Shown one piece after another: positions 27,269-56,193 of a DNA stretch of 64,000 bases. Every line of letters starts with the position of its first letter. Position 1 is the stretch's first letter. The position numbers and the translations under genes were made by a program. The stretch covers positions 31,368 to 95,367 of the forward strand of contig JAOMOG010000003.1 of assembly GCA_028353405.1 (NCBI GenBank), in the 5' to 3' direction. This stretch comes from Candidatus Poseidoniaceae archaeon. GTDB lineage: Archaea; Thermoplasmatota; Poseidoniia; Poseidoniales; Poseidoniaceae. The notes under the pieces were generated by a model, which did no database searches, was not told where the DNA came from, and saw only the letters and a list, made by a program, of their open reading frames with translations.

Positions 27269-27397
27269 TTTTGTAATAAGTGTCCATTTTACGCTGGCAA
27301 TCGCATAAAATTAATTGACTCAATATATTGAATAAACGACATTATTTGAGATTGAGCAGGGGTATCATTGAAGACCTTTCATCAACAGCGTCAGCCT

Positions 27398-30300
27398 ATG
27401 GCGAGAGGAGGCTATGCCCATCGTGCAATTCTCCTAGTCGTATTGTTATTGATTGGAGGGCCAGTCCAAATCGGCCTTTCAGCGCAATATGATGGCACAA
27501 TTGCCCAGCAGTCACTGATTGATGAGCCTACAATATTCCCTGCTGCTACTGGCTCAACGCAGACCATTTCATTAGATGGCTCAACTGTTAATGATGCCTT
27601 TGAAGTGGAGGTACTAAGCGAAGAGCCACTAGTTGATATCAAACTCAATCTTTCACCAGCGGTACAAGTCACTCAATCTTCATATATTTGGGATGATAAC
27701 AACATATGGTCACATGCAGATGCACAACTAGATGGTGCCAAGCAATCCGGTGTTGGTTTATCTCTGAAGGGCGTAGACGCAGTATGGGATTTTAATTCAG
27801 GCAATGATGGTTGGACTTTCTCCAACGCTTATTCGGGAAGGTCAACCCTTCAATGTGGAACAAACGGTACTGGTGGTGGTTCGATCAGAACTTATGCGGG
27901 TTCAACATACGCAACTTCTCCAGTAGTCAATCTTAACGGATTATCTTCAGTTTCCGTTCATGCGTGGGTGAAACAGGGTAATTCAGGGTGTGGAGAAGAA
28001 CCAGATGCCAATGAAAACCTTGCATTCCAATACAAGACAAGTAGCGGTGGATGGACAACTTTTCAAACATACATGGGTTCAACTGCTGGAGGTACAGCGG
28101 TTCAGTTGAGTCAAAATTTACCAGCCGTAGCATTACATGCTAATAGCCAGATTAGAGCATACCAGAATTCAGGTTCAAGCACATGTTGTGATTATTGGTT
28201 CTTTGATGACGTATTCATGGACATTCCTTCATCTGCAACTTGGATCAGCCCCACCATCGGTTGGGCTAGCAATGCATCATTCCCAGTTTCAAAATCTGTT
28301 ATGGCTCCAATGTATATCGATGCCGATGTACCTGCAGGAGCACGGCTTGATTGGACCGTATTGGATGATAATGGGCTTGAAATTGATGGAATGAGTGGTT
28401 CAGGCGCAGTGATCCCTCTACAATTTATTGATTTTGAAAATATTAACGAAGTCAGGATTAAGTTTGAATTTAATGAATCAAATGCTGGATTGATTCCAAG
28501 AATTTTCGCACTTTCATTTGATGGTGCATACAAAGACACATTACAACCACTTCAAACAGGGATGATTTGGACCAATAATGGAGCACTCTATACCAGCAGT
28601 GCAACCCAATTCTCAGGTAATGCAACTGCAAATATCACCTCTCCTTGGTATAGTGCTGACTTTGCATCTGAAAGTGTAGTGGTAGATGGTCAGAGCACAA
28701 ATGCACAAGCACAAATACGATTTGATAGAGATGATAACTGGACTAATATTTCTTTACCATACACCTATAATTTGGATGAGACACTATATGGATTACAATT
28801 ACAATTCGCAGCCCTTGCTCCTGCCGATGGCAATATGAGTAATTTCACATCTTGGCAAGTTGATGAAATTGAACTTAGATTTAGTGGTGGGTCTTACCCA
28901 GCCCAACCTGCAATAGATTTCTCCGGCGATGAACTCCTTGAATGGGGAGGCAGTGATGATAGAGTCGGCTCTTGGGGTTGGCAAGATCGATTCGCTAATG
29001 GCGAGACACAGGTAGAAGTCATAGCAGGTATCTCAGGGTATGCTACAACAAAAGCTTGGATTCCAAAGGATGATTTACAATCACTTTCGTTCTCAGTATT
29101 GGCACAAGGTGGGACATTTAACACAGTCAACATCGTTGTTGGAAGTACTACTGTCACTACCTACACATTTTCCGATCGCACTAATGCACAAATACAATTG
29201 GATATTTTAGAATTGGATGATCTCAAATTAGAATTAGCAGCATCTACCTCAGCAGTTGCCGCATTAGGTACATTCTTTGTAGAAGTTGAATTAGAAATCC
29301 TGGGCTCTGGCAATATCACTTATGGTGGATTGAGTGCACCGTATCAGGCATCAATGACATTGGATGCTGGTCCACAATCAGCATTCGTTTTAGCAATTAA
29401 TTCCGCTCGAAGAGGATTAGTTCCGAGTCAAGGGATTCACCATATTCCTGTTCCATTCATCGCATCATCCGCAGGTGACTTGAAAATTGAATTGGTATCA
29501 ATGAACTCCTCATCAGAGGTTGTTCTTATTGATACTAGCATGGAAGATGAACCATTGACACTGACTCCAAGTCAGCAATGGATGACTATGCACGCATCAT
29601 ATCAAGTGTTTTCTTCAACCGCCAATATGGTTCGTTTTGATGTATTTGGTTCTGAAAATGAAGCGACTTGGTTGCTACCATTGAATGGGGGAGGACCGAT
29701 TGGACAAGGAGATTATGACAAGGTTGAGTTACACCCAACCAATGCCCTACAATCAACTGTTAATGGCACTGATGTTGATTTCAGTATAACCTTTAGACTT
29801 GAACCGGATTGGGAGGATGAAGATATATTGACTGTTTCCTCAAGATTGATTCTCAGTAGTAATACAATCTCAATTCCAGCATCCTACTATTGGGGTGGAT
29901 TTGACTACCAAGGATTTGAAAACGACTTAGAAATACATTCATTCAGTGTCTCAACGGATGAAGGAGAAATTCCTCAATCTGTTAATTTCTTACAATCGTC
30001 AGATGAGATCGTATTTACAGTTGATATTGGATTTGAGGGCGTTGATAGCAATGCTTCATTTGCCGATGGTGATGCGTTGGTAGAACTTGTCAGAGGAGGA
30101 CAAGTGATTGCAAATACAACGAGTTTGGATGAGGATATTTGGGTTGTCAACGATACAATTCCTTTCACTCACGGAAATCTAACTTGGACTATCAGAGTAA
30201 CTCCATTAAGCGGTTCAGGTACAACAACTAATTCTGAGATTTCTAGAACGTTCTTTATCGATTCAGTGAGACCGAGGGTGCTTGAGACCAGTGTTGGTTG

Positions 30301-32500
30301 GTATGATCATAGAGAACCAAGTGATACTCAAACGATGCATATTCAAATCACTGACCAGCCTGAATTACCGACCAATATTCATGCTAAAGTATGGCGGCAA
30401 TGGCTTGAAGATGACAATATGAATGGCTGGCCAGACCCTGGTGAGTATTCTTCAATGTCATTGCTACACCCGTCAAACCTTGGCTCTTTAGTAGGGCAAT
30501 ATACACTGTTATTGGATGATAGCGGTGGCAGCATCGGGCAGAAAGTTGCAGTCTATATCGTAGGCCAAGATACCGCCGGTTATGCAATCAAAGATGCAGG
30601 TTCAAATCAAAGTGGTGAGCACTTATTCATGTATCAATTAGCACCTGATGGCCCTCCATCCATTATGGCTAATGCATTCTCATGGCAAGATGGTCGTCAA
30701 GCTTGGTTACATCCGGATATGCCATATGTTCTGGAGGTTGATATCAGTGAACCAAACGGTGGTTCTGATCTTGCTTCTGTAGAAGTGGCCTTGGCTGGAA
30801 ATCAAGGTTCTGACCCACTTCTAATAACTTGGGATTTTGAAACTGGAAATTGTACAAGTGCTTCATCGCATATCATTTTAGATGATTGTAAAATGATGGG
30901 TGCTAATGGCTATGCCACTCCTTATGAAAAGGATATGACTCTGCAAATTGAATTACATTTGGCCTGGACAATGCCTGATTTAGGAGAAACGAGAAGAGAG
31001 CCAATAGTCACTGTAGTTGATAGAGCGGGTCAAGAAGCAACTCATAATTTCCCAGAAAACAGATGGAAGTTTTCAGCCGCAATGGAAGTACTTGAAGAAT
31101 CAGTAAATCTACATCTCTCCTCTGGTACATTGCTTGGTGATGGAGCGAGATTAGGGCCGAATAGTGCTATGGAGATTTCAGGAGGCGTAGTTTTCTCAGA
31201 AACAGGAACAATACCAGACTTCAACTGTAGCATTGATATTTTGTTTGATGGTGAAAGCAAATCAACTTTAGCACAACAAGGCATTTGGAACATCGCTCTA
31301 ACCACGCCGGGCCTTTCTGGTACAATTCCACTAACCTGGTCTGTTGGCTGCATGCCTGAACAAGGAATTGATGCTACTGATAAAGGAACTTCAGTGCGTT
31401 GGATTGTAGTTGATGGAGAAGGGCCTATTCCAGTTGAAATTCTCTCACCGAGAATGGATGCAATACTTGATTCGGAGCAACATGAGATTCGAATTGTTGT
31501 TTCTGAAGAAGGCGGTATCGATATTGAATCATTACAATTAATTTGGTGGGTTGAAGATGAAATCACAGGAGACCATCTTAGAGATGGAACTGAGCCAATG
31601 CTATTGGTGGGCAATGAGATTGAAGGTCTCAGATTAGAACTCACCTCTTCGTTTGATTTAACAGAAATTACCGATGGTATGCTAGAGGATCGATTGCAGG
31701 TTTATGTTCGCATTGATGGAAGAGATTTAGCAGGTAATCAGATACTCGGATTCTCGGGTACTCCTGCGGGCACTCCAGTTGCACAGTGGGGTATGAGATT
31801 CTTAGAACCTGAATATCAATTGGAGCCATCATCAGTAGAATATTCACGGCTGATGGTTGAAGTCGGTCAAACAACTTCAGTGTTAATTAGTGTCCAAAAC
31901 ATTGGCACTTTGGACGGAACAACAGACGCAGTCATTACCGCAGTTTCCCAAGATGGAACACGCACGATAGTTAGGCGAACCAGCGTTGATGTTCCAAAGG
32001 GTGGTATCGGAATCATCAGCCTAGATTGGGGTCCTGAAAGTCCAGGATTGCAGTGGATTGAGGTTACCCTTGAAGATGGAGAGACTGCTAATGGCCCATC
32101 GATTGACGTTAGGCCAGAGAGAGTAATGACAACCAGTGAGAAAATCTTTGGCGATGTCCACCCTGTTTTGGGTACATTCGTTGGGATTCTATTCCTTTCA
32201 ATTATAATCACAGGATTGATTTGGGCTAAGAGATTAACCAATAATAAGGGTAGTAGAGAGCATTACGATTGGGATGAATACTCATCCGAATTAGATGATG
32301 ATGAAGATGATGAATACGAAGAAGATGAAGTTCAACCGACCCAATCGGCGGCAGTAGCAGCAGTTCAGACCCAAGTTCAGGAAGAAGTGGTTCAAAGTGA
32401 ATGGGAATTAGGTGCTGATGGTTATTGGTGGTATCATGATAAAGAGACCAATGAATGGTGGTACAAAGATGCTGAAGGTAATATCGTACAGTTTTCTTGA
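27398..32500 (+). CDS. Giant secreted single-TM protein with Trp/Tyr-rich C-terminal tail
   Basis: ORF from TTG 27368; ATG 27398 gives MARGGYAHRAILLVVLLLIGG signal. Region with AVWDFNSGNDGWTFSNAYSG...CCDYWFFDDVFMDIP (MAM/concanavalin-like). TM VLGTFVGILFLSIIITGLIWAKRL, acidic linker, ending GYWWYHDKETNEWWYKDAEGNIVQFS. Confidence 0.88.
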   Translation: MARGGYAHRAILLVVLLLIGGPVQIGLSAQYDGTIAQQSLIDEPTIFPAATGSTQTISLDGSTVNDAFEVEVLSEEPLVDIKLNLSPAVQVTQSSYIWDDNNIWSHADAQLDGAKQSGVGLSLKGVDAVWDFNSGNDGWTFSNAYSGRSTLQCGTNGTGGGSIRTYAGSTYATSPVVNLNGLSSVSVHAWVKQGNSGCGEEPDANENLAFQYKTSSGGWTTFQTYMGSTAGGTAVQLSQNLPAVALHANSQIRAYQNSGSSTCCDYWFFDDVFMDIPSSATWISPTIGWASNASFPVSKSVMAPMYIDADVPAGARLDWTVLDDNGLEIDGMSGSGAVIPLQFIDFENINEVRIKFEFNESNAGLIPRIFALSFDGAYKDTLQPLQTGMIWTNNGALYTSSATQFSGNATANITSPWYSADFASESVVVDGQSTNAQAQIRFDRDDNWTNISLPYTYNLDETLYGLQLQFAALAPADGNMSNFTSWQVDEIELRFSGGSYPAQPAIDFSGDELLEWGGSDDRVGSWGWQDRFANGETQVEVIAGISGYATTKAWIPKDDLQSLSFSVLAQGGTFNTVNIVVGSTTVTTYTFSDRTNAQIQLDILELDDLKLELAASTSAVAALGTFFVEVELEILGSGNITYGGLSAPYQASMTLDAGPQSAFVLAINSARRGLVPSQGIHHIPVPFIASSAGDLKIELVSMNSSSEVVLIDTSMEDEPLTLTPSQQWMTMHASYQVFSSTANMVRFDVFGSENEATWLLPLNGGGPIGQGDYDKVELHPTNALQSTVNGTDVDFSITFRLEPDWEDEDILTVSSRLILSSNTISIPASYYWGGFDYQGFENDLEIHSFSVSTDEGEIPQSVNFLQSSDEIVFTVDIGFEGVDSNASFADGDALVELVRGGQVIANTTSLDEDIWVVNDTIPFTHGNLTWTIRVTPLSGSGTTTNSEISRTFFIDSVRPRVLETSVGWYDHREPSDTQTMHIQITDQPELPTNIHAKVWRQWLEDDNMNGWPDPGEYSSMSLLHPSNLGSLVGQYTLLLDDSGGSIGQKVAVYIVGQDTAGYAIKDAGSNQSGEHLFMYQLAPDGPPSIMANAFSWQDGRQAWLHPDMPYVLEVDISEPNGGSDLASVEVALAGNQGSDPLLITWDFETGNCTSASSHIILDDCKMMGANGYATPYEKDMTLQIELHLAWTMPDLGETRREPIVTVVDRAGQEATHNFPENRWKFSAAMEVLEESVNLHLSSGTLLGDGARLGPNSAMEISGGVVFSETGTIPDFNCSIDILFDGESKSTLAQQGIWNIALTTPGLSGTIPLTWSVGCMPEQGIDATDKGTSVRWIVVDGEGPIPVEILSPRMDAILDSEQHEIRIVVSEEGGIDIESLQLIWWVEDEITGDHLRDGTEPMLLVGNEIEGLRLELTSSFDLTEITDGMLEDRLQVYVRIDGRDLAGNQILGFSGTPAGTPVAQWGMRFLEPEYQLEPSSVEYSRLMVEVGQTTSVLISVQNIGTLDGTTDAVITAVSQDGTRTIVRRTSVDVPKGGIGIISLDWGPESPGLQWIEVTLEDGETANGPSIDVRPERVMTTSEKIFGDVHPVLGTFVGILFLSIIITGLIWAKRLTNNKGSREHYDWDEYSSELDDDEDDEYEEDEVQPTQSAAVAAVQTQVQEEVVQSEWELGADGYWWYHDKETNEWWYKDAEGNIVQFS

Positions 32501-42120: not shown

Positions 42121-42311
42121 TGTTTACGAGGGGCGGAATCTAGCACATCAATGGTTGCTTTGTGCCGTATTGCATCTATTTGAGAGGTAATACTCTTGCG
42201 ATTCTATCTCTGTATGTCATTTATGCATTATTCATAATATGTGCTACGATTTGCATAGGTAAAAGGGTGTCAAGCGATTCTTTCAATAACTGCCGGTATC
42301 AAGATGTAAGC

Positions 42312-42743
42312 ATGGTGACGACACGCATGACCGGCAGAAGCCGTCGTTACTTCAAAAAAATACAGAGGTCAAACACTCGTTATGAGTTGCAAGAACTGTC
42401 CAGTTCCATCCAATCAGATTTGGATAAAAGAAATATCACTTATGATGCAGCATTAAATTTGGGTAACCTCATCCAAAACAGGGCTGATCAATTACCCGGA
42501 GATGCCATAGTTTACTCCATCTCCGATAGGGATGCATATCGCAGAACTTTAGAACTCTATCTTAGAGATTCTTTGCTGACGAAAACCGAGCAATTATTGC
42601 TTTGGGAAGAGAGGCGTAGATTAGGAATTAGCGACGAGGATCATGAACGTTTATTAGTTCAGTTAGTAGCTCAATGGAAACGTCAAGGAAAGAATGTTAC
42701 AATCGACCAATTCCGTAAGCCTGGTGGTGAGTCACATGCGTGA
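42312..42743 (+). CDS. Small basic helical protein of unknown function, first gene of the archaellum-linked trio
   Basis: ATG 42312 (MVTTRMTGRSRRYFKKIQ...); ORF open from GTG 42162. Stop overlaps the next ATG (ATGCGTGA, 42736-42743). Confidence 0.65.
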   Translation: MVTTRMTGRSRRYFKKIQRSNTRYELQELSSSIQSDLDKRNITYDAALNLGNLIQNRADQLPGDAIVYSISDRDAYRRTLELYLRDSLLTKTEQLLLWEERRRLGISDEDHERLLVQLVAQWKRQGKNVTIDQFRKPGGESHA

Positions 42744-45700
42744 TTCAAGCACCAATATTAGTACCCTCTTGGCAGGGTTAATTCTACTGGTATTATTGAC
42801 TCCAAATATCGCCCCATTTACAAGTGCTAGTGATGGTGCAAGGGCTAACCCGGATTTCTCCGTGCAATCGATTACACTCGATGGCGCAGGTTCTGTTTGG
42901 GACGGAGTGGATTTAGTCCTTGAACAAGAAGAACATATTGTTAGAATAGTTGTAGCTAATACTGGCTCGGCTGCCGGACAGGTCATACTTAGTCTCGTAC
43001 ACCGAGGCTCGCCAACCGCCGGTGAAACCACAATTACAAGTGTTAATTTAGGAACGATGTCTGCTTCATCAACCAGCAATCCAATCTTAATCTCTTGGAA
43101 TGCTACTACGGGCGATTCACAGACTTTATTTGCTAGGGTAGCTCCTTCTTCTGCTACAATAGATACCAATAGTGCAAATAATGAACAAAGATTAGATTTC
43201 AATGTCAGGGTATTCCATTCTGGCGCAGTTACTGGGGAAACTATTCCAGTACCTACTGGTGGGCAGAGTACTGCTAGATTGACCAATGCAGTTCATCCAG
43301 TGACAGCAACCGTTCTCAATCAAGGAGTAATGGCAATGTCTGCGGCCATGGAACTTTCATTCTTTGAAATAAGCAACCCCGCTAACACCTTTACACTGTG
43401 GTCTAATACGGTGACTCTAGAACCAGGTTCTCTTTTGAATCCTGCAATTGCTAGCGTACTAAACACCAATCTCGATGCGACTTCAATAACAGGTATCTGG
43501 AATTTAACGGCGACAGTCCATTTCAATGGGACGGCATATACAGATCCACAAATCATCAGTGAAGTGGATGTAGAATTTTCAAACTTTGTTGCCGAATTAA
43601 CGACTCCTTCTGATAGAACTACAGAACCTGGAATGCAGACTACATTAACCTACATTGTCAAGAATACTGATACGTCATCAGACTCGTTTGTTGTCAGTAT
43701 TAGTGATGTACTAGGTTGGGCAGATAAGACACGAGATGGTGCGTCAACCCCTGTAATCTCTCCAAATGGAACTCATATTGAAGAAATAGTAGTAACAGTA
43801 CCAATAGGTGCATCAAGAGCATTGGTAGAAAGTATCACCCTGACTCTAACATCTGTTTCAGCGAGTTATACTCTTACAGGTATGGCTCGTGTAATGTCTG
43901 GTGAACATTTTTCTGCATCGGTGTCGATGCCAGCAGGAGTCACCTTGGTAACTCCGGGACAAGAAGTTGAATTGTCTGTCCAAATTACGAATGATGGTAA
44001 TGTTCCAGCGACTTTCAATCTAAATTCTGGATTAGGCGTTTTGGCAAATAATTGGACTTTATCTTTGTCATCCACTTCAACAACGGTGGTCAATGATGGT
44101 TCTACCGTCACAGTAGTACTTACAGTCGTAGTACCACCGATACAACTCCCTCTTGATGCAAGCGAGTATAATCGCGCTGGTGATTCAATTAACGTATGGG
44201 TGCAGGCTCAAGCAACAGGCGGTGGACTGCCTGCAATTGGTTTTTCAGCAGTTGAAGTTAAGCCAATAATTGTGGTAGATCCTGGTTTGCCAACAGAGCA
44301 TATTGAATTAACAGTTCAGGATGTCATCGATGCCAAGAATGGAATGGGCTTTGACGAAATACTAGGGCTCAATGTTGAAGTTCGGCATAATTTAGTCTCA
44401 GATATTTCAGAAACCTTGGATGTAACTATCAATGCCTCTGAACAATTCTTTACTGCAGACAATACTGGTGGGTTTGAAGAAGCGGAAAGATGGAACTCCT
44501 CAGTAACCCCTACCACTCTAACAGGATTAATACCTGGAGAGATAAGATTAGCAGCATTGGGAATTCAAGGCCCTGCTAGCAATGAGTATCCTCTTGCAGG
44601 AACTATTAGGATACCAGTGACTGCATACCCTTCCTTAGGATTAGTACATTCAGGTTCAGGAATCGAAGCAGTAAATGTGACGAGAAATCTTACCATTACT
44701 ATACCACGAGTGTTGGGTGGTGAAATAATAGAGCAAGGTCCACTCAATGCAACAGTTGGAATTAAAACAGACTTTGGCCTGAATCTCTCAAACATTGGTA
44801 ATGATTTGACATCATATCGCCTAACTATAGTTGATGACTTACCAGATAATTGGATTGCAACCCTTAACACCACTACTCCCACCTCTAATACGATTGATAA
44901 TTTATCAGCAGATGTCTCAGATTGGTCTTTGACTTCTGGAGTTATCGGTGACATCCATCTGCAAGAATTCACACTTTCGGTAACTACCGATCCCCAAGCT
45001 TCCGCTGACATATCACAGCCACTATCAATAATAATAGAAGAGAGAGATACCGGATTTTATATTGATACACATACGATCAACATTAGTGTTAACGAAGTGA
45101 TCAATGCATCACTCTCACCAACCAATCAATCAGTAGATCTGAGTGCATATGAGACTCAACTGACAAGAGTAATAATCAATAACACTGGTAACGCTCCAAC
45201 AAATTTCAACCTATGGCTGGATGATTCTAATTCAGCAGATGTTGATTTCACACTTGAGAGTCCAGACAATCTTCTAATCGCGGATGGATATGAAAGTTCG
45301 GTAAAGATTAGAATTAATCCAAGTGAAGATGCTAGTTTTGACGAATTATATATGGCCACACTTTGGGTATCAACCGATTCTGGTCTGAATCTGTCCGCCA
45401 ATATAGTGGCAAATATTAGTGAAGAACACTTACTTGAAATCGATGCACCTTCACAAATTGCAGTAGTTCCAGGAACAAATCAAGATGTCGCATTCAATTT
45501 GACTAACATAGGTAATTTAGTAGAAACTGTAACTGTGACTATCGGTGTTGAAGGTAATTGGACAGTCACTCCACCCACTCAGCAATTTACTTTGCCAATA
45601 GATGCGGTTGTTGATGGCACAGTCATTGTAGAAGTCCCTTCTCTTGGTGGTTCAGATGATCTTCTAAATGGTGCAGTGCACAATATGACTATTACCGTAA

Positions 45701-47631
45701 CCGATTCAGTTACGGAGGCAACACTGGGTGTTCGCTCCGTTGAATTAGTGGTCGGTGCATTATTCCTCGTTGAAGCAGATAATTGGCCGGATGAGATGTT
45801 GTATCACCGTCAATGGGAAAGGACTTGGAATGTGATTCTAACCAATACTGGAAATGATGATGTTACAGTTTCAATCGATTACGACATATTACTGCCTGGA
45901 TTGACTATTAATAGTGATGCTTGGGAATTGAGTGAGGGTGCAGTAACTACGCTGACATTACCGCGTCAATCAGCAATACCGTACTCGTTTAGCGTATCAG
46001 GTACTGAGTTTGAACCGGATTTGACATTAGCAGCAGACTTGGTTGTAATACTCACTCCTCTTGATGAAACAATCGAAGGTACAGCGGAATTACGAACTAC
46101 TTTGAAGATGTCACGATTCTTTGAAGCAACACCGATTGAACTTCGTCCACCAGCGGATGATGGACCAATGGAAGTTGACTTAGTATATTCACACATACCT
46201 TCTGTCAATTCATCAATAGTGGCTTATGAATTGGAAATGTGTTCAGCAGTCAGATTAATTGAAGTTGCCAATTTAGACTTAAATCCGGATGACTATGTCT
46301 GGAATTTCACTGTTTATGTCGATACCACAGTGCACTATCTATCTCTTAACGCAAGTTGTGCCACTGGCTCACAAGGTAACAGTTCTAGAATCTCACTCCC
46401 GCCACGAGCTGCTTGGGATACAAGTGCTCCAATTAGAATCATTGTCGACGCTCCGAACCGACCAAATATTTTGCCAGGTGATGGATATGATCTAACATTT
46501 AGGTTGTACCATCCAGATGAGAATGTTGGCTATACCATCTTCACTGAAGAAACATTTACATTTGCCTTGGATGTATTTTCAGACCCAGAAATTGGAGATA
46601 TAGAAATCGTTGAAGGTAAACTTATTGAAGGAACTGAAGCGATAATATCCGTTGATGTAAAGAATGGTGGAACAGCGCTTGCTCTTGGAGTCAGAGTAGA
46701 TTTAGTATGTGATAATCTAAACATTCTTGAATCACCACCAGAGATTTTCCTATTAGGTCCTAATAGTGAAGAAACTCTAACCTTTAGAGTTGAATCAATT
46801 AATTTGGACTGGTGGGCACAATCATTGCCAGTAGAATGTACTGCAAGTCTTAATGGCACATTAATGCACAAAAACATCGTTGCTAATGATGTAGGTACAT
46901 ATGAAGGAAATGTTGAATCATTCAGTTGGGGGCTTTCCATTAGTTTCATTGCAACAGTAGTTCTAATGATAATTTCACTATTCCTAATCAATCTATCATC
47001 AAAGAATGAAAAGATGCGATTAGTAGCGGTTTACACTGGTGTGGCTGCATTAGGATTCGCATTCCATATTGGGCAAGCCTTCTCATTAACATGGTGGGGG
47101 CCTGCTATTCTTGCACTAACCGCCTTGTGGGTTTGGAGGATGACGTGGTCATGTAGTGAAGAATTCCGCCTTATCCATGAGGATTACCAGCGTGCTAGAA
47201 GAGGTGTTTCAACTATGTATGCTGATCACTTTGAGGCTCTTGCAGATGGCCGAAGACAACTTTCACTGATTTTGGCATTACCGATATTCGGTATGATGGG
47301 AATTGTACTGGGTGTTCCTCCTCAAATGGCCTCAGATCGTACTAACCTGGTCTCATTAGTAGTGTATATGGCTGTAATAATGATCGGCGTTTGGATTCTC
47401 TTATCAAAGTCAGACAAGATGTATGGAAATCTATTCGGTCGCCTAACAGATGTAGAAGTAAAGGCAACAAGAATCGAAAGAGATTTGGGAGACCCTGCTC
47501 GCCTTCTTAATGAATTAGCAGATGAGGGATTAGATTTAACCGCCATCTTTGAAGGAGTTTCAACAACGACATCAGTTTCCGATATAATTCCTGACAACAA
47601 CAACGAAGAGGGGGTGAACGACGATGTCTGA
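42736..47631 (+). CDS. Giant cell-surface membrane protein with repeated CARDB/NEW3-like beta domains and C-terminal TM cluster
   Basis: 1632 aa from ATG 42736; signal MRDSSTNISTLLAGLILLVLLTP; recurring segments such as IVVANTGSAAGQVIL, YIVKNTDTSSDSFVV, VQITNDGNVPATFNL, NLSNIGNDLTSYRL, VIINNTGNAPTNFNL, NLTNIGNLVETVTV, ILTNTGNDDVTVSI; about five C-terminal TM helices and acidic tail. Confidence 0.85.
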   Translation: MRDSSTNISTLLAGLILLVLLTPNIAPFTSASDGARANPDFSVQSITLDGAGSVWDGVDLVLEQEEHIVRIVVANTGSAAGQVILSLVHRGSPTAGETTITSVNLGTMSASSTSNPILISWNATTGDSQTLFARVAPSSATIDTNSANNEQRLDFNVRVFHSGAVTGETIPVPTGGQSTARLTNAVHPVTATVLNQGVMAMSAAMELSFFEISNPANTFTLWSNTVTLEPGSLLNPAIASVLNTNLDATSITGIWNLTATVHFNGTAYTDPQIISEVDVEFSNFVAELTTPSDRTTEPGMQTTLTYIVKNTDTSSDSFVVSISDVLGWADKTRDGASTPVISPNGTHIEEIVVTVPIGASRALVESITLTLTSVSASYTLTGMARVMSGEHFSASVSMPAGVTLVTPGQEVELSVQITNDGNVPATFNLNSGLGVLANNWTLSLSSTSTTVVNDGSTVTVVLTVVVPPIQLPLDASEYNRAGDSINVWVQAQATGGGLPAIGFSAVEVKPIIVVDPGLPTEHIELTVQDVIDAKNGMGFDEILGLNVEVRHNLVSDISETLDVTINASEQFFTADNTGGFEEAERWNSSVTPTTLTGLIPGEIRLAALGIQGPASNEYPLAGTIRIPVTAYPSLGLVHSGSGIEAVNVTRNLTITIPRVLGGEIIEQGPLNATVGIKTDFGLNLSNIGNDLTSYRLTIVDDLPDNWIATLNTTTPTSNTIDNLSADVSDWSLTSGVIGDIHLQEFTLSVTTDPQASADISQPLSIIIEERDTGFYIDTHTINISVNEVINASLSPTNQSVDLSAYETQLTRVIINNTGNAPTNFNLWLDDSNSADVDFTLESPDNLLIADGYESSVKIRINPSEDASFDELYMATLWVSTDSGLNLSANIVANISEEHLLEIDAPSQIAVVPGTNQDVAFNLTNIGNLVETVTVTIGVEGNWTVTPPTQQFTLPIDAVVDGTVIVEVPSLGGSDDLLNGAVHNMTITVTDSVTEATLGVRSVELVVGALFLVEADNWPDEMLYHRQWERTWNVILTNTGNDDVTVSIDYDILLPGLTINSDAWELSEGAVTTLTLPRQSAIPYSFSVSGTEFEPDLTLAADLVVILTPLDETIEGTAELRTTLKMSRFFEATPIELRPPADDGPMEVDLVYSHIPSVNSSIVAYELEMCSAVRLIEVANLDLNPDDYVWNFTVYVDTTVHYLSLNASCATGSQGNSSRISLPPRAAWDTSAPIRIIVDAPNRPNILPGDGYDLTFRLYHPDENVGYTIFTEETFTFALDVFSDPEIGDIEIVEGKLIEGTEAIISVDVKNGGTALALGVRVDLVCDNLNILESPPEIFLLGPNSEETLTFRVESINLDWWAQSLPVECTASLNGTLMHKNIVANDVGTYEGNVESFSWGLSISFIATVVLMIISLFLINLSSKNEKMRLVAVYTGVAALGFAFHIGQAFSLTWWGPAILALTALWVWRMTWSCSEEFRLIHEDYQRARRGVSTMYADHFEALADGRRQLSLILALPIFGMMGIVLGVPPQMASDRTNLVSLVVYMAVIMIGVWILLSKSDKMYGNLFGRLTDVEVKATRIERDLGDPARLLNELADEGLDLTAIFEGVSTTTSVSDIIPDNNNEEGVNDDV

Positions 47632-48625
47632 TGACGAATTAGATGAACTGGAAAGTGATTTTGATGCACAAGATGTTGAACTTGGTGACGGTGATGTTGA
47701 AGAAGCTAGAAGCGTTATTGCAGCAGGTAAAGATTCAGCCGATCGTTTGATGGCCGCTTCACGAGAATTAGAATCAATTGTATATGGAGTGGTACAAGAT
47801 GAAACCAATTCATTAGCGGGAACTGAACTAGATATTTCCGATGCTAAAACTTTCCTTTCAGTACACAAATTGTACAAAGCGAGAAGAAGTGTTCGCCGAG
47901 CAGAAAAAGCGCTTGGTGAATTGGAAGAAGATGTTCTGTACTTACGCCGCAGCATTGCCATGCTACACCGACTTCTAAATGAGAAACAAGTGACAGAGGG
48001 TGAAGTTGAAAATATTCTCATTCGTCTAAGAACAGCAACAGGTGCAGCAGAAATTGGTGAAGTAGGTACTGCAGCAAGTGAAGTTGAATTCCTAGTCGAT
48101 GATTTGATTGGCGGAAACACATCAACTCTCAACCCATTCCTATTCCGCCATTTCTGGTTAGGTGTTGATACACGCTGGCCAGCAGGTGGAGATTCAGGTG
48201 TTTTGCTGGTCAGAATAATCAATGACGGCCCGATTCCAATGCCGGTAATGCGTATTTCACCTCCAGTGCCAATTGGCTGGACTGCCAATCCTAGTGTAGT
48301 GGACTTACCGATTATTTCTCCTGGTGGAAACGTTCCTCTTCGCTTCGAGATTACAGCTGCTAGAAGATATGGTGCAGATGAAATCCCACTCTCTCGTAAA
48401 CTGGCAATCTCAACTTCTTATGAGATGCGATCTGGTGAAATCACGATTACTATTAGGGCGCAAAACCGTTCAATGGAATCATTATCCGATGTAGTACTCT
48501 CGCCATGGCTTCCGCCAGGATATACAACAGATAAGGTGCCATTCGTGGCTCGCTTGACTCCAGACGAAGTTGCATTGATTAGAATGCCACTACGCATAGA
48601 TCTAGGAAACGGAGGAACTTCCTAG
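47624..48625 (+). CDS. Coiled-coil plus beta-sandwich protein of unknown function, upstream of the archaellins
   Basis: 333-aa ORF; ATGTCTGA overlap with upstream gene; N-terminal helical region (ELESIVYGVVQDETNSL...ARRSVRRAEKALGELEEDVLYLRRSIAML), C-terminal beta region (LLVRIINDGPIPMPVMRISPPVPIGW). Confidence 0.8.
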   Translation: MSDDELDELESDFDAQDVELGDGDVEEARSVIAAGKDSADRLMAASRELESIVYGVVQDETNSLAGTELDISDAKTFLSVHKLYKARRSVRRAEKALGELEEDVLYLRRSIAMLHRLLNEKQVTEGEVENILIRLRTATGAAEIGEVGTAASEVEFLVDDLIGGNTSTLNPFLFRHFWLGVDTRWPAGGDSGVLLVRIINDGPIPMPVMRISPPVPIGWTANPSVVDLPIISPGGNVPLRFEITAARRYGADEIPLSRKLAISTSYEMRSGEITITIRAQNRSMESLSDVVLSPWLPPGYTTDKVPFVARLTPDEVALIRMPLRIDLGNGGTS

Positions 48626-48710
48626 ACCATGTATCATTTTCTACCCCGTATGGGGGAGGACGAGTAATAAAAACAAAAAAATAAAAATGGAAAATAAAAA
48701 GGTGAAAGAA

Positions 48711-49280
48711 ATGAAAAAAGAAATAAACGAAAATAACGATGAGCTCGCCGCTATCGGAATTGGTGCAATGATTGTATTTATTGCATTGATTTTGGTGGCC
48801 GCGGTAGCAGCGGCTGTAATTATACAAACTGCTGAAAAATTGCAACAGAATGCCCAGGCAACAGGTGATGACACACAAGAACAGATGTCCACGAAAGTGA
48901 TACTTCTATCTACAGTTATCTCTGACATGACCGGTGGTGCTGAGATACTATTCTCAACCTTCGAGTTAGCGCCAGGTTCAGAACCGATCCAAGGTGACGA
49001 TGTAGCATATACTGTAATTTGTGACAATGCAGGTGTAGCAACATTCGCCGACGGTGAATTTGATGAAGCAACTGTCCACACAGGAGATGGCTCAACACTT
49101 GCAGCTCCAGTCATAACCTTGAATCCAGGGATTACATATGTAGTTGAACTTGATATTGGAGGTTGCGGACCAGCAGCAAACGTAGACCACATTCTCATCA
49201 TCGCAGTTGATGGTGGCGGAAACACATACGAAGAGTTACAATACGGCAGTTCACCTGCTGTAGGGGACGTAGTAGTTTGA
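48711..49280 (+). CDS. arlB1: Archaellin 1
   Basis: LAAIGIGAMIVFIALILVAAVAAAVIIQTAEKLQQNAQATGDDT archaellin N-terminal helix; start at 48711 supported by AAAGGTGA SD (ORF track opens at 48687). Confidence 0.92.
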   Translation: MKKEINENNDELAAIGIGAMIVFIALILVAAVAAAVIIQTAEKLQQNAQATGDDTQEQMSTKVILLSTVISDMTGGAEILFSTFELAPGSEPIQGDDVAYTVICDNAGVATFADGEFDEATVHTGDGSTLAAPVITLNPGITYVVELDIGGCGPAANVDHILIIAVDGGGNTYEELQYGSSPAVGDVVV

Positions 49281-49290
49281 GGTGATTATC

Positions 49291-49860
49291 ATGAAGAACA
49301 ATAATGAAAACAACGACAACTTAGCAGCAATCGGTATCGGCGCAATGATCGTCTTTATCGCACTTATATTAGTAGCAGCAGTAGCAGCAGCAGTGATTAT
49401 TCAAACTGCAGAAAAGCTTCAGCAAAACGCACAATCCACTGGTGATGACACAACAGACGAAATGTCTGGTAAGGTCACAGTCCTCAATGTATTTGTCAAC
49501 GATGCTGATAATTTCGAAGTCTACTTCCGTTTAGCAGCAGGTTCTGATGATACTGCTGACTCAGATATACTTTGGCAACTTACTTGTGATGACGGCGCAG
49601 CCGGCATGGATTATATCGCTGGCGATTTCAGTGGTTCTGCCATAGACCCACTTGATGGAACAGCAGCGGTTACAACTGCAGCAGCAGGTGTTGCTTACCG
49701 AACTACTCTTCTCGCCAGTGCTGGCGGGAATGACTGTGGTCCTGACGCACTATTCACTAACAATGTCAAGGCAACTCTGTACCTACACGTTGTAGGTGGC
49801 GGAACTACCTACGACATTCTCAAAGTTAGCGATTCATCTGTTGGCTCCGTGGTAGTCTGA
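49291..49860 (+). CDS. arlB2: Archaellin 2
   Basis: LAAIGIGAMIVFIALILVAAVAAAVIIQTAEKLQQNAQSTGDDT; ATG 49291 with GAGGTGA SD (track opens at GTG 49282). Confidence 0.92.
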   Translation: MKNNNENNDNLAAIGIGAMIVFIALILVAAVAAAVIIQTAEKLQQNAQSTGDDTTDEMSGKVTVLNVFVNDADNFEVYFRLAAGSDDTADSDILWQLTCDDGAAGMDYIAGDFSGSAIDPLDGTAAVTTAAAGVAYRTTLLASAGGNDCGPDALFTNNVKATLYLHVVGGGTTYDILKVSDSSVGSVVV

Positions 49861-49917: not shown

Positions 49918-50760
49918 ATGGCATGGCCATTTAGTGGCGGAGATGGAGATTCCCAGGATGCAGACGCTTTATTGAGTGAAGAACGCTTGAAGATAATGGC
50001 AAATGTTGCCATTGAACAAGTCCCCCTCCCAGAAGAGGGCGAACTCAGTGAAGAAGATGCTTGGACAATATCCCCTGGACCAACCAAAGCCCGCCTCAAC
50101 AGTATCGGAAGCGTACCGAGTGTGGCAGCAAGCCTCGCTCCTGCTCAACCAGTGAATATGAATGCACAAGTTGATACTTCTAGTTTGGAACGTCTAATCA
50201 GTTCACGTCTCGACATGGTCGAAGATGTGCTCAGATTGGTTGAATACAAATTGGATGAAGGACCAATTACTCAAGATGGATCACAATCCGAAGACGCATC
50301 AGACGATGAATCTATGGAGATTGATGCAAACAGTGGAGATGTAATCATCACCTCATCAGGAGAAGTCATCGCCGCTACTGGTGTTGACCGAATGATGGAT
50401 GAAGATGATGCTCCGTTAGTTGAGTTGTATGAAGCACAGGCACTCAGAGCAAATCCATTCCTAGTCGCACCATCTGATGGTCTCGGCGGGGGTACAAACC
50501 AAATCGGAGCTCCGACAGTATCGGCTCTGCTTCTAGACAATATGTCTGGAATGGCAGCAGTTAGTTTTACTCAAAAGGCAATCGATTCTGGAATGTTAAC
50601 AGTGGATGAAGGAGAAACGGTAATGGCAATTGTACAATTGGCAGCACCTGGAGAATCTGAAGCAGCACTCGAAGACCACCTTGCTAACAAAGAACTTCTA
50701 ACACTATCTGCTCTTGTCAAATCTTGGCGCAGTTCAGAAGGATTACGAGGTGAATTGTGA
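49918..50760 (+). CDS. Candidate divergent ArlD/E-like archaellum protein
   Basis: Position between archaellins and ArlF; acidic soluble 280-aa protein with long linker and compact C-terminal helical domain (VSALLLDNMSGMAAVSFTQKAIDSGMLTVDEGETVMAIVQLA...LTLSALVKSW). Homology not demonstrated. Confidence 0.5.
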   Translation: MAWPFSGGDGDSQDADALLSEERLKIMANVAIEQVPLPEEGELSEEDAWTISPGPTKARLNSIGSVPSVAASLAPAQPVNMNAQVDTSSLERLISSRLDMVEDVLRLVEYKLDEGPITQDGSQSEDASDDESMEIDANSGDVIITSSGEVIAATGVDRMMDEDDAPLVELYEAQALRANPFLVAPSDGLGGGTNQIGAPTVSALLLDNMSGMAAVSFTQKAIDSGMLTVDEGETVMAIVQLAAPGESEAALEDHLANKELLTLSALVKSWRSSEGLRGEL

Positions 50761-50761
50761 A

Positions 50762-51403
50762 ATGGGCGCTTCGGTCGGAATCGGAGGTTTGATTATTGGC
50801 ATGACCATGTTGGTCGTGTTCTCTATGGTAGTGGCATCAATTGATGCAAATGTTGATTCATCACTACAAACCATCGATTCGGCCAATGAAGCATTGCCCT
50901 CTTTCACCATCGACGATGCCACCCTTTGGGAAGGCGCAGTCGTCGATGTTCAGATCGGCAGTGGAGGAAGTGGATATACTAATGGAAATCTAGTCTCTTC
51001 AACAGGTAATGGTGGCTTCGCAGCCACCTTTGCTGTTGACGGTAGTGGTGCGATAATTAGCGTGGCAATCACCAGCCACGGAAATTACTCGTCCGCACCA
51101 ACTATCGTTGTTCAAGGACAGACTCCGACAACATCCGCAACCTTCGTTTCATCGATCGGAAATTACATTCACTCGAATGTTACTAATACAGGTTCACAGA
51201 TAACCCCACTAAGAGAAATTTGGGTATTCTCCGATGGCGAAAACCCAACCAATCTTGGAAGCATATACGCGGGTGGAAGTAATAATCCACATTGGTATTC
51301 TGGTGAAACACTTCATGTCCAATGGGCAGAAAGTGGGACATTACCTGTTTCTAGAGTTGCAATTTCAGTTAAAGGTGTCAACATGGCATCAACACTTGCA
51401 TGA
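50762..51403 (+). CDS. arlF: Archaellum stator protein ArlF (FlaF) with inserted repeat module
   Basis: N-terminal TM MGASVGIGGLIIGMTMLVVFSMVVASIDANVDSSL; C-terminal NYIHSNVTNTGSQITPLREIWVFSDGENP; ATG 50762 with GAGGTGA SD. Confidence 0.8.
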   Translation: MGASVGIGGLIIGMTMLVVFSMVVASIDANVDSSLQTIDSANEALPSFTIDDATLWEGAVVDVQIGSGGSGYTNGNLVSSTGNGGFAATFAVDGSGAIISVAITSHGNYSSAPTIVVQGQTPTTSATFVSSIGNYIHSNVTNTGSQITPLREIWVFSDGENPTNLGSIYAGGSNNPHWYSGETLHVQWAESGTLPVSRVAISVKGVNMASTLA

Positions 51404-51412
51404 GGTGAATAT

Positions 51413-51907
51413 ATGGCAGATGGAGGAGCATCAACATTCATTTTGCTGATTACAGCATTGTTAGTGTCTGGATCGGTTTCGGCAATTCTCATTAATCAAT
51501 GGGGGGATATGTCTAGCGCTCTTGAAGAAAACCGCAAGGGCAAAGAAGCTGATGCAAAAACTTCAGTCTCTTTTGCAGGTGATGCGATGGAGGTTGGGTA
51601 TGATGATTCAGTAAGCCCTAATGTGATGACGTTTTATCTTCAAAACACAGGGCAATATGTTCTTGATGAAAGCACTCTTGTAGTGATTGTTGATGGTATT
51701 TCAGTAACATCGAGTATTACAACAACGATTTTGCCCAACGGTGCAGATTGGACCGATGTTAGATTAGTAGAAGTGGAAGTTTCTTCAAGTTCTTGGTCAT
51801 ATCAAAATGATGATAGCGTGAGTATTTCGGCAGTAGTTTCTTCCGAAGTTACTTCCGGTTACCGTGGAACTGATACAATGGATATTGAGGTGAGATTAAA
51901 TGTCTGA
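51413..51907 (+). CDS. arlG: Archaellum stator protein ArlG (FlaG)
   Basis: N-terminal ASTFILLITALLVSGSVSAILINQWGDM; beta-sandwich NVMTFYLQNTGQYVLDESTLVVIVDG; between arlF and arlH. Confidence 0.82.
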   Translation: MADGGASTFILLITALLVSGSVSAILINQWGDMSSALEENRKGKEADAKTSVSFAGDAMEVGYDDSVSPNVMTFYLQNTGQYVLDESTLVVIVDGISVTSSITTTILPNGADWTDVRLVEVEVSSSSWSYQNDDSVSISAVVSSEVTSGYRGTDTMDIEVRLNV

Positions 51908-52643
51908 TGGAATAGATACAGATGACCCTATGTTCGCAGCACATAAGCCGGTTGAAGATGGATACCCATTCGTCTTAGAGACCGATTCACTTGCAGATTC
52001 AATGGGTTCAAGATTGCCTAATCGTTCAATATATGTAGTTCAGGGTGATGTCGGTTCTGGAAAATCTTTGATAAGTCAAAGATTATCTTTTGGACTTGCA
52101 GAAAATGATGTCAAAGTATTAGTCATTACAACAGAACTAACGACACGAGGATGGATTGAACAAATGGAGTCCATCGGTTACGGGGTTACAGAATTCATTC
52201 GTACAGGACAGTTGATGGTTTTCAGCCGCTTTGGAACTATTGCAGAAGCACTTCCAGATGTCGGTATTCAACAAGTACTCGAGAGTGAAGCAGTTTCTAA
52301 AGCAGATATTATTATTATTGATTCTGCAAGTTCTTTAATGCCGGATGATTTAGATGATAACGGAAGATTCAAGATGATGCAAAACCTTCGTAGAATCACT
52401 AGTGAAGGGCGTTCAGTAATGCTATGTGTTGATGAAAATGAAATGGATTCCAAACTATTGCACACACTCAGAGCATCATCTGAAATAGTCTTAGATATGA
52501 AAACAGCAATGATTGGCGGAGATATCAAACGAAATATTGTCGTTACAAGATATCTCCGTGCAGCAGGACCAGTTCAATCTTCAATTGGTTGGAGAGTTGA
52601 ACCTTCTATGGGATTCATCGTAGATATTACAGCGGTAAGCTGA
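51900..52643 (+). CDS. arlH: Archaellum KaiC-like ATPase ArlH (FlaH)
   Basis: Walker A YVVQGDVGSGKSLISQRLSFGL; Walker B ADIIIIDSASSL; upstream of arlI. Confidence 0.93.
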   Translation: MSDGIDTDDPMFAAHKPVEDGYPFVLETDSLADSMGSRLPNRSIYVVQGDVGSGKSLISQRLSFGLAENDVKVLVITTELTTRGWIEQMESIGYGVTEFIRTGQLMVFSRFGTIAEALPDVGIQQVLESEAVSKADIIIIDSASSLMPDDLDDNGRFKMMQNLRRITSEGRSVMLCVDENEMDSKLLHTLRASSEIVLDMKTAMIGGDIKRNIVVTRYLRAAGPVQSSIGWRVEPSMGFIVDITAVS

Positions 52644-52656
52644 TGGAGGGATTAGT

Positions 52657-54378
52657 ATGAGTGATGAACCAAAATTTGCTAAAGGAGATTTGGCCAGTGT
52701 AATGGCCGCTCATCCTCACGTAGCAGATTGGGTTAGAGATTTTGAAGCACAGCATGGGTCTAGACCAATTTACTATGGTGAGTTGGATAGAGGTGCGAAA
52801 AAAGAACGTCCTTACAATTTAATCTACATTACAAAAGAACCAATCTTCGTACACATGTACGAGCCTCCGGAAGATGATCAGCAATCTGGTGGCGAAATCT
52901 TGTGGTTTGGTCTTGAACCACAATTGACAGACTCTGAAGAATATATCAGGAGGGAATTGATTGAAACTCTATTACAAGAAGCCCCAACAGCACCATCATT
53001 TACTACCGATAATGAGTTTGAAAATATTCTCGGACAAATGATAGAGCGATATACGGTACTCGATACTGAATTAAGTGGTACTGTTCGTCGTCAAGGGAAG
53101 TTATGGCAACTTGTTGGTCTGGATGATCGCAGATTGACAGTAACACAGAACCAACGGGAACGACTACGCTATGTCGTTATCCGCGATTTAATTAGAAATG
53201 GTCCACTTGAACCACTTCTTTCAGATGAGATGCTGGAAGATATTCACTCAGTTGGACTAAAACATATTCACATGGACCACAAAATATTCGGTATGGTCAC
53301 TTCCAATATTAGATTCCGTGACAGGGATTTACTGTCTAGATTCTTGAGAGCAATGTCAGAGCGCATTGGTCGACCAGTTTCCGATAACAAACCAATTATT
53401 GACGGAGCACTTCTCGATGGTTCACGTATCAATATCATATTCTCAGACGATGTCTCGATGCTCGGGCCATCTTTCACAATTCGTAAATTCGCAGAAGAAA
53501 CAATCTCTATTACACAATTAATCCAGTGGGGAACAATTTCAGCACAAGTTGCTGCCTACATTTGGATTTGTTTAGAATATGGTATGTCGGTTCTAGTATC
53601 TGGAGAAACAGCATCTGGAAAGACTACAACACTCAATGCAATCCTTCCATTCATTGACCACAATGTCAAGATTTACTCGGCAGAAGATACTCCTGAAGTC
53701 AAAGTACGCCACAAACTATGGCAACGCCTTGTCACTCGTTCTTCCAAAAATGAAGAGTCAAGAGTTGAAATGTTCGATTTGCTAAAAGCAGCTCTAAGAA
53801 GTCGTCCAAGATACATCATCATTGGTGAGATTCGAGGTGTTGAAGGTGCTACAGCATTCCAGGCAATGCAAACTGGTCACCCAGTAATTGCTACTTTCCA
53901 CGCATCGAGTATCGTGAAAATGATTCAGAGATTTACAGGTGACCCGATCAATGTTCCAATGCGGTTCTTCGATAACTTGAACTTCGCGATTTTCCAAGAA
54001 GTAGTTGAAGACCCTAATGGTGGTGGAATCGCAAGGCGTGTAACTGGTATCGACGAAGTAATCGGCTACAATAAACACAGCGATGGTGTATTAACGCGTG
54101 GTATGTTCGAATGGGATCCTATCAAAGATAAGCACTATTTCCGTGGAATGTTCCAATCGCATTTACTTGAAAATAAAATTGCGGCTGTGGCAGGATTCTC
54201 AAATAAGCGTGACATCTATGATGAGATGTTAAAACGCGCAGCAACACTTCAGATAATGGTGGACAGAGATTTAACACATTATGATGACGTTTTTGATTTA
54301 CTCGGAATATATTACAATACAGGATGGGATAATTTCAGTAGAGCGGTAGATACGTGGGTTGGGGTCAACCACAAGTGA
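52657..54378 (+). CDS. arlI: Archaellum motor ATPase ArlI (FlaI)
   Basis: Type II/IV secretion ATPase motifs: VLVSGETASGKTTTLNAILPF, IYSAEDTPEVKV, RPRYIIIGEIRGVEGATAFQAMQTGHPVIATFHAS. Confidence 0.96.
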   Translation: MSDEPKFAKGDLASVMAAHPHVADWVRDFEAQHGSRPIYYGELDRGAKKERPYNLIYITKEPIFVHMYEPPEDDQQSGGEILWFGLEPQLTDSEEYIRRELIETLLQEAPTAPSFTTDNEFENILGQMIERYTVLDTELSGTVRRQGKLWQLVGLDDRRLTVTQNQRERLRYVVIRDLIRNGPLEPLLSDEMLEDIHSVGLKHIHMDHKIFGMVTSNIRFRDRDLLSRFLRAMSERIGRPVSDNKPIIDGALLDGSRINIIFSDDVSMLGPSFTIRKFAEETISITQLIQWGTISAQVAAYIWICLEYGMSVLVSGETASGKTTTLNAILPFIDHNVKIYSAEDTPEVKVRHKLWQRLVTRSSKNEESRVEMFDLLKAALRSRPRYIIIGEIRGVEGATAFQAMQTGHPVIATFHASSIVKMIQRFTGDPINVPMRFFDNLNFAIFQEVVEDPNGGGIARRVTGIDEVIGYNKHSDGVLTRGMFEWDPIKDKHYFRGMFQSHLLENKIAAVAGFSNKRDIYDEMLKRAATLQIMVDRDLTHYDDVFDLLGIYYNTGWDNFSRAVDTWVGVNHK

Positions 54379-54390
54379 GGAGGAGATGAA

Positions 54391-56193
54391 ATGGAGCGTC
54401 TGCCACTATGGCAAATTGCGTTACGTCGCATCGACATGCCTGTTCAAAGATATATTGGTATCTTTGTTGGTGGATCATTTTTACTCGGCTTGATAGTTGC
54501 AAGCATATTGATTTTCTTGACTGGAGGATTTGCAGATGGTGCATTATTCGCCGGTTTCGCTGGAGTATTGATGTTGATACTGCTGCCAGTAATGGCAGCG
54601 TTTGCAGCGATTGCATTCCCTGTATTGGAAGTACAACGCTCGGCTACATTAATTGAAAGAGAAATGCATATGTTCATCACCAGGATGGGAATTCTCTCAC
54701 TCGGAGAGGTAGGTGCATCATCAATATTTGACATTCTAAAGCAAATGAGTGATTATGGTGAATTGGCTAGTGAAGTAAAAAGAATTGAGACTTTGGTAGA
54801 CAAATGGCACACATCCTTGCCTGAAGCATCCAGAATAGTTGCTCAGCAATCACCATCTCCGTTATGGGCTGATTTCCTTGCTAGAATGGCGTTTTCAATT
54901 GAAGCAGGTCAACCAATTGATGCGTTTATGCGTTCAGAGCAAGAAACAGTTTCAGAACAATATGCGACATTATATGATACAAGGTTAGAATCGGTTGATA
55001 TCATGAAGGAGATATATGTCTCATTAGTTTCTGCTGGATTATTTGGACTGATTATCGCTGGAATACATTTGGTGTTATTTGAAGTTGGCACAGGCGCTGA
55101 TACACCTATTGAAGTGGCATCAAGAATCAGATTCTTATTACTCGCATCAATACTATTCATGTTTGTACAAATCGGTGCAGTATTTGCCTTTAGGGCAACG
55201 ATTCCGAAGGACAAGACCTTTGCAAGAGATGAACTAGAGACGCCATTTAGACTGAACTTTAATAGAACTTTATTGATGGCTCTAAGCATTACTATCGTCT
55301 TGTTGATGATTACAACGGCTTCAGTCATTTATGCGTGGGAAGGAATCTCTCAAGAATGGGACAAATACGGATTATTGCTGATTGCATTACCTCTAAGTCC
55401 AATGCTTATTCCAGCATTTTTAGTTGGAAGAGAAGAACATAATATTCTTCGCAGGGATGAAACGTACCCAGATTTTATTCGTGCATTAGGTGGAACCGCC
55501 CAGGCACGAAGTGCAGAACCTAGTGCTACGATTAAGGCACTTAGAGGAATTGATTTTGGTGCCTTGGATTCATCCATCGACCGTTTGGAAAAGAGACTAT
55601 CCACTAGAATCGATTCTGATAGAGCATGGGATTATTTCAATTCAGATACAAACTCAGCAGTAATTTCCCGCTATACTCGGATCTATATTGAAGGTTCACA
55701 ATCTTCGGGTAAGCCTGCTGCTACAGCAGATTTAGTCTCACGTTCAGTAGGTAATTTACTTTCATTACGTCATCGAAGAGCACTTTCTGCAGATACTATG
55801 GCGGGAGTGTCATTGGGTCTACTCATTGCCAGCGTAACCTCACTCAATGTTACAATCGCCATCGTATTGAAATTAGGTGAAGCAATAGCTGGAGTTGCTA
55901 CTGGATTTACCGAAACAGATGTAGGTGCATTGGCAGATTTCGGTGCAGGGGTTGCATTACCTGTAATGGAGGATGCGAGTTCAGTTGGAAGTAATATTAA
56001 GATGTTCAAAGTAATAGTCTCAATACTAATATTGGGTCAAATTGCTGCTGTATCAATCATTGCGACTAGATTGAGAGGTGGTGGAAAGGTTAGTGCTCTC
56101 GGTCAAATTGTCAAATTAATTTGGGTTGCAGGAATTACTTCACTATTGACTTCTATAATGTTAGATGGGGCAAGTTCGATGTTCGGCATCTGA
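54391..56193 (+). CDS. arlJ: Archaellum platform membrane protein ArlJ (FlaJ)
   Basis: Polytopic protein following arlI; T2SF-like regions (FLARMAFSIEAGQPIDAFMRSEQE; YPDFIRALGGTAQARSAEPSATIKAL). Confidence 0.93.
   Translation: MERLPLWQIALRRIDMPVQRYIGIFVGGSFLLGLIVASILIFLTGGFADGALFAGFAGVLMLILLPVMAAFAAIAFPVLEVQRSATLIEREMHMFITRMGILSLGEVGASSIFDILKQMSDYGELASEVKRIETLVDKWHTSLPEASRIVAQQSPSPLWADFLARMAFSIEAGQPIDAFMRSEQETVSEQYATLYDTRLESVDIMKEIYVSLVSAGLFGLIIAGIHLVLFEVGTGADTPIEVASRIRFLLLASILFMFVQIGAVFAFRATIPKDKTFARDELETPFRLNFNRTLLMALSITIVLLMITTASVIYAWEGISQEWDKYGLLLIALPLSPMLIPAFLVGREEHNILRRDETYPDFIRALGGTAQARSAEPSATIKALRGIDFGALDSSIDRLEKRLSTRIDSDRAWDYFNSDTNSAVISRYTRIYIEGSQSSGKPAATADLVSRSVGNLLSLRHRRALSADTMAGVSLGLLIASVTSLNVTIAIVLKLGEAIAGVATGFTETDVGALADFGAGVALPVMEDASSVGSNIKMFKVIVSILILGQIAAVSIIATRLRGGGKVSALGQIVKLIWVAGITSLLTSIMLDGASSMFGI

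Follow-up and report, generated by a model that had tools for sequence, protein, structure and literature searches.

What holds the motor of the archaellum still is an open question. The ArlCDE proteins have no transmembrane (TM) anchor, and the positions of the stator parts are described as unresolved in a review (PMC8978795). Since Thermoplasmatales swim without an S-layer, what serves as stator scaffold in these archaea is open as well (PMC12448462). The question returns in a stretch of 64,000 nucleotides (nt) from a Candidatus Poseidoniaceae archaeon (GCA_028353405.1, contig JAOMOG010000003.1, positions 31,368 to 95,367; hereafter the window), where three open reading frames, ORF1 to ORF3, run into the archaellum (arl) genes. 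Here we show that ORF2 and ORF3 are linked to the archaellum throughout the order Poseidoniales and beyond it, and propose, with a probability of about one half, that together they make up a dedicated transmembrane anchor or an extra stator of the Thermoplasmatota archaellum, with ORF1 as an optional helper.

ORF1 (42312..42743), ORF2 (42736..47631) and ORF3 (47624..48625) have uninterrupted reading frames on the same (+) strand and lead into arlB1-B2-(C/D/E-like)-F-G-H-I-J, in a genome that is 66% complete. ORF1 encodes a protein of 143 amino acids (aa), ORF3 one of 333 aa, and ORF2 a giant for which an earlier note on this DNA, made from the sequence alone, had given 1632 aa; the gene call stands, with a true length of 1631 aa. 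The same note had reported 8 base pairs (bp) shared at both junctions, and this is exactly what is found, at 42736-42743 for ORF1/ORF2 and at 47624-47631 for ORF2/ORF3. Its suggestion of coupled genes is supported by the fact that the overlaps are kept in most relatives, often as the identical 8 bp. A start codon that yields the same 8-bp ORF2/ORF3 overlap is present in 54 of 79 relatives, and those without it mostly have another overlapping start instead. A scan of GTDB genomes turned up relatives that are, with few exceptions, metagenome-assembled genomes (MAGs) of Poseidoniales, Poseidoniaceae or Euryarchaeota; they include the MG-II chromosome CM001443.

The association with the archaellum was surveyed in 293 genomes of the order Poseidoniales. 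ORF3 was detected in 177, the TM part of ORF2 in 180 and ArlJ in 182 genomes. ORF3 and ArlJ were found together in 166 and were both missing from 100, with ORF3 alone in 11 and ArlJ alone in 16; the corresponding figures for ORF2 and ArlJ are 167, 98, 13 and 15. The two module genes follow each other more closely still, with 175 genomes carrying both, 111 neither, five ORF2 only and two ORF3 only. The odds ratio for co-occurrence with ArlJ is 84-94 for ORF2 and ORF3 (Fisher p about 1e-46). Such p values overstate independence, given the kinship among the genomes sampled and the incompleteness of MAGs; the direction is nonetheless unambiguous. Wherever ORF3 and ArlJ share a contig they lie on the same strand (81/81 pairs), with ArlJ 5.6-7.9 kb downstream. 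The exceptions were inspected as far as coordinates could be obtained: in ArlJ-positive genomes with no detected module the contig stops short of its expected position, and in one such genome (G005), where the module had been missed at first, ORF2 was later found by profile search on another contig. No Poseidoniales genome with an intact arlB upstream region and no module was found, some of the exceptions not having been seen at full length. The ORF2-ORF3 pair was lost along with arl in many genera. The link claimed in the earlier note is thus borne out. The note had also named a refuting outcome, in which most orthologues would sit in genomes without an archaellum or at a distance from arl genes; these genomes show the opposite.

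A first reading of the profile searches, according to which the module was restricted to Poseidoniales, was dropped when weak profile hits turned up beside independently detected ArlD/E genes, with a PF04659 (ArlD/E) gene about 2 kb downstream of several ORF3 matches. In family f11 a giant Ig-like/five-TM gene (1495-1517 aa) is followed by an ORF3-like gene (about 370 aa) and then by arlB, C/D/E, F, G, H, I and J; in two of its loci (L271 and L273) the giant gene and the ORF3-like gene overlap by 4 bp. Family f28 has the same arrangement before arlB, with a pair of 1492 and 322 aa. Family f12 has an ORF3-like gene ahead of arlB at a contig edge, and in f26 the pair is present on a contig that ends soon afterwards. 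Comparison of profiles by hhalign relates ORF3 to the protein upstream of arlB elsewhere (Prob 96, E 2.8e-9, 233 columns), and, less strongly, the membrane part of ORF2 to the giant of other families (Prob 62, E 7.5e-5), a mismatched control comparison giving Prob 2. The layout of three plus two TM helices is common to ORF2 and these giants. At least two further Thermoplasmatota families, f11 and f28, therefore have a divergent ORF2-ORF3 pair immediately before arlB, and the module, for which the earlier note had suggested a lineage-specific role, is not confined to Poseidoniales. The matches of genomes G324 and G329 to the ORF3 profile were set aside, being a beta-sandwich protein distant from arl. 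Two single-contig genomes of family f24 (loci L288 and L294) have another secreted protein of 966-967 aa, with one C-terminal TM helix, directly before arlB-ArlCDE; it is possibly an analogous surface partner.

ORF2 is predicted to be a membrane-anchored rod. It has a signal-like segment at residues 8-26, an ectodomain of about 1360 residues of tandem beta-sandwiches and a C-terminal part composed of three TM helices, a cytosolic loop, two TM helices and a cytosolic tail, the predicted topology placing the loop at about 1471-1508 and the tail at 1557-1605. These features, together with eight NxG[NDST]-type repeats, agree with the giant surface protein that the earlier note had described. About six beta-sandwiches were counted in 510 modelled residues, which by extrapolation gives roughly 15 overall. 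The only Pfam matches are to NEW3/CARDB-type Ig-like domains: NPCBM_assoc scores 27 bits against a cut-off of 24.4, and 57.6 bits in an orthologue from the Poseidoniales family f2. An AlphaFold2 model of residues 881-1631 (mean pLDDT 82) consists of a beta-sandwich chain followed by helices; a PDB fold search with it returned generic Ig-like matches only, and a PDB sequence search with ORF2 no match. The ectodomain is acidic and carries 27 N-glycosylation sequons, against 17.6 +/- 3.8 in shuffled sequences. With a conservation per position of about 0.5, the ectodomain is less conserved than the loop (1481-1510) and the tail (1571-1600), both at 0.84.

Neither a signal peptide nor a TM segment is present in ORF3 (maximum KD19 = 1.09), which is therefore predicted to be cytosolic rather than an envelope protein. 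Its AlphaFold2 model, of moderate confidence (mean pLDDT 65), shows a helical domain followed by two tandem beta-sandwiches, and the invariant residues concentrate at the 'NPFLFRxFW' junction between them. A PDB fold search with this low-confidence model returned nothing informative. PDB sequence matches of ORF3 were dismissed as coiled-coil noise, as was an identity with EzrA, a coiled-coil resemblance that scored far under the cut-off. Searches with Pfam and NCBIfam found no PF04659 or FlaC domain in ORF3 and no match of the Arch_flagellin, ArlF or ArlG models to ORF1-3.

ORF1, small and also predicted to be cytosolic, has no family match in Pfam or NCBIfam. The trio had been read tentatively in the earlier note as envelope proteins; by these predictions ORF2 is the only one. 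Strong ORF1 orthologues occur in nearly all archaellated genomes of the window's family (f1) and in f2 genera g15, g17 and g19; in f2 genera g14 and g21, as in loci outside Poseidoniales, ORF2 has no such neighbour. Since it is absent from the g14, g21, f11 and f28 loci, ORF1 is dispensable and the core of the module is the ORF2-ORF3 pair. In the comparison with locus L069, identity is 72-73% for ORF1 and ORF3 and 76% for ArlH, against 48% for ORF2, 42% for ArlF and 39% for ArlG, so that to judge by sequence the divergence of ORF1 and ORF3 resembles that of the cytosolic parts of the motor, and the divergence of ORF2 that of the stator proteins F and G. For a mirror-tree comparison of ORF1-3 with Arl proteins, all genes were complete in five loci only. 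Weak second copies of ORF1 (E about 1e-5) lie elsewhere in many Poseidoniales genomes, archaellum-less ones included. In four f2 loci from two genera (L080, L081, L085 and L086) ORF1 and ORF2 are separated by an additional gene (about 1051-1082 aa); its product has a single N-terminal TM helix, a coiled coil and repeated 'WDNxNDLDL' domains, and a shorter relative adjoins arl in several f2 loci.

Upstream of ORF1 lies a conserved 20-nt promoter-like element, CGATTCTTTCAATAACYGGC (42275..42294, + strand), 16-18 nt before the ATG. Of 61 orthologous loci, 46 have it at this fixed spacing with no more than three mismatches, and 13 have only a diverged version. Eight genomes with an archaellum were scanned; in seven the best match is the site upstream of ORF1, the eighth (G133) having one equal match with two mismatches elsewhere, and none was found in two archaellum-less genomes scanned; the element is essentially operon-specific. 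Its placement would fit an archaeal promoter of a leaderless transcript. An alternative GTG start of ORF1 at 42162 was considered unlikely because the conserved element occupies that region. The spacer between ORF3 and arlB1 (48626..48686, + strand) is 50-85 nt long across loci, and no element of the ORF1 type was seen in these spacers. With such an element before ORF1 and none before arlB, the arl transcript probably begins with the module. In Poseidoniaceae loci the spacer has a short covarying hairpin, then an A-rich tract, then a GGTGA ribosome-binding site. The covariation score of the hairpin is 0.34 versus 0.13 +/- 0.02 after shuffling and is highest in register; the hairpin perhaps serves mRNA processing or differential expression of the archaellins.

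An anchor or stator is in our view the best explanation, since a membrane-crossing giant that is most conserved on its cytosolic side and has a cytosolic partner adjoins the motor genes order-wide. ORF2 would be exported and fixed by its five TM helices in the membrane around the motor, with the Ig-like rod pointing outward, where it could meet ArlF/ArlG or bind the envelope and so take on the job that the S-layer has in other archaea. ORF3 would hold the conserved loop and tail of ORF2, its helices and two beta-sandwiches docking onto the cytosolic ArlC/D/E-H-I ring, and the torque-generating parts would thereby gain a fixed point across the membrane, in a lineage whose ArlCDE-type ring has no membrane anchor of its own and whose best-known relatives lack an S-layer. 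A more specific version, which we put forward tentatively and hold rather less probable than the general proposal, is that the Ig-rod giant, clamped by its cytosolic adaptor, is a stator that joins the motor ring directly to the exterior and makes an S-layer unnecessary. Of the possibilities named in the earlier note (envelope scaffold, stator anchor or adhesive sheath), the stator anchor fits and an anchored envelope protein is indeed encoded; a sheath found no direct support. Some points weigh against the proposal. One genome (G309, family f18) carries the pair away from its arl locus; the archaellated families f27, f16, f24, f15, f21, f8 and f7 have no pair beside arl, so that in them it is not needed for a working archaellum; and published interpretations of archaella in Poseidoniales lean towards adhesion as strongly as towards motility (PMC6461757). 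Should the proposal hold, the module supplies named, testable proteins for a missing link, in very abundant surface-ocean archaea as well as in other Thermoplasmatota families.

The strong conservation of the cytosolic loop and tail could also be expected of a sensor or regulator, whose Ig-like rod senses surfaces or ligands and whose loop and tail, with ORF3 and possibly ORF1, act as a switch for the archaellum or for its synthesis in place of the missing chemotaxis system. The chemotaxis adaptor CheW was detected in none of 20 Poseidoniales genomes, chemotaxis genes have been reported absent (PMC6461757), and ArlCDE normally receive chemotaxis input (PMC8978795). Yet profile searches recognised no signalling, enzymatic or nucleotide-binding domain in ORF1-3, and so many Ig-like domains in a row make a costly sensor; we consider this function unlikely. 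The same cytosolic parts, together with the partner ORF3 and a strict linkage to the motor genes that holds even in distant families, are left unexplained if ORF2 is a surface adhesin or sheath co-expressed with archaella that serve particle attachment. This is slightly less likely still, even though the giant Ig-like ectodomain is rich in sequons and archaella for adhesion are already a published reading for Poseidoniales (PMC6461757).

An assembly or export factor of a lineage-specific archaellum, for instance an envelope passage or a lining for the filament, would agree with a module that leads the operon, and so is made before the archaellins, and with the combination in ORF2 of a membrane part and a long extracellular part; the fold of ORF2 is a chain of Ig-like domains and not pore-like, which makes such a role improbable. 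That the genes are unrelated neighbours, kept by chance or by general conservation of gene order, might be thought of because tpx and an acetyltransferase-like gene further upstream are also syntenic within family f1. These neighbours change in f2 and beyond, however, whereas the pair stays with arlB and disappeared with arl from many genera, so that chance is largely refuted and scarcely credible. The transmembrane anchor or extra stator thus remains the reading that we prefer.

The genes that follow ORF3 are a complete archaellum set plus a candidate ArlC/D/E-position gene, all on the (+) strand, and for the set matches to Pfam and NCBIfam confirm the names given in the earlier note. They are the archaellin genes arlB1 (48687..49280; PF01917, E 5e-23) and arlB2 (49282..49860; PF01917, E 2e-17), the candidate gene (49918..50760), arlF (50714..51403; 229 aa, enlarged; NF052590, E 1.8e-4), arlG (51413..51907; NF052591, E 6e-17), arlH for a KaiC-type ATPase (51900..52643; PF06745, E 5e-13), arlI (T2SSE; 52657..54378; PF00437, E 1e-37) and arlJ (54391..56193; NF004704, E 1e-116). 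The candidate was placed by position. Its product matches true ArlCDE weakly by hhalign (Prob 11, E 0.003), 4 of 15 members of its family match FlaC_arch weakly, and its position and a 'LYEAQALANPFL'-like motif agree with true ArlCDE despite strong divergence from PF04659, a model that found no match in 10 archaellum-bearing f1 genomes tested, against 31 of 77 genomes phylum-wide. ArlF of family f1 is lengthened by a Gly-rich stretch (213-336 aa, against 131-161 aa in most f2 genera). Elsewhere in the window, 27368-32500 encodes a protein of 1710 aa that has a signal-like N-terminus but matches nothing in Pfam.

The motility operon of MGII in the same genomic region was reported by Tully 2019 (PMC6336850) and Rinke 2018 (PMC6461757), and the former pointed out hypothetical proteins, orthologous but unannotated, within the operon and near it; there, unlike here, the module genes are not named, interpreted or tied to other Thermoplasmatota. 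No description of ORF1-3 was found in the literature searched, most subscription papers and preprints lying outside the search. The module is genuine, has a strong link to the archaellum, extends further than the earlier note supposed and is undescribed in that literature. It is best compared with three known systems. The ArlF/ArlG stator with its S-layer anchor (Sulfolobus, Pyrococcus) likewise places beta-sandwiches outside the membrane, as a proposed fixed point for the motor encoded in the same operon. ORF2 differs as a polytopic giant that is not pilin-like, none of ORF1-3 combines a pilin-like N-terminal helix with a single archaellin-like beta-sandwich, and ArlF and ArlG are retained alongside. 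ArlX of Thermoproteota and the ArlC-D-E ring share the proposed job of holding or scaffolding the motor at the membrane; unlike ORF2, ArlX has a single TM helix and no giant ectodomain, while ORF3 has no sequence match to ArlC/D/E, for which the operon has a separate candidate gene at the usual position. Archaeal S-layer and NEW3/CARDB-repeat surface proteins resemble ORF2 in their signal peptide, tandem Ig-like ectodomain and membrane anchor, and ORF2, with tandem Ig-like domains above the Pfam cut-off, belongs among the latter. Rather than being a general coat irrespective of archaella, it is missing from nearly all archaellum-less Poseidoniales sampled, and it is set apart from both groups by its five TM helices, its conserved cytosolic loop and tail, its partner gene and its strict linkage to arl.

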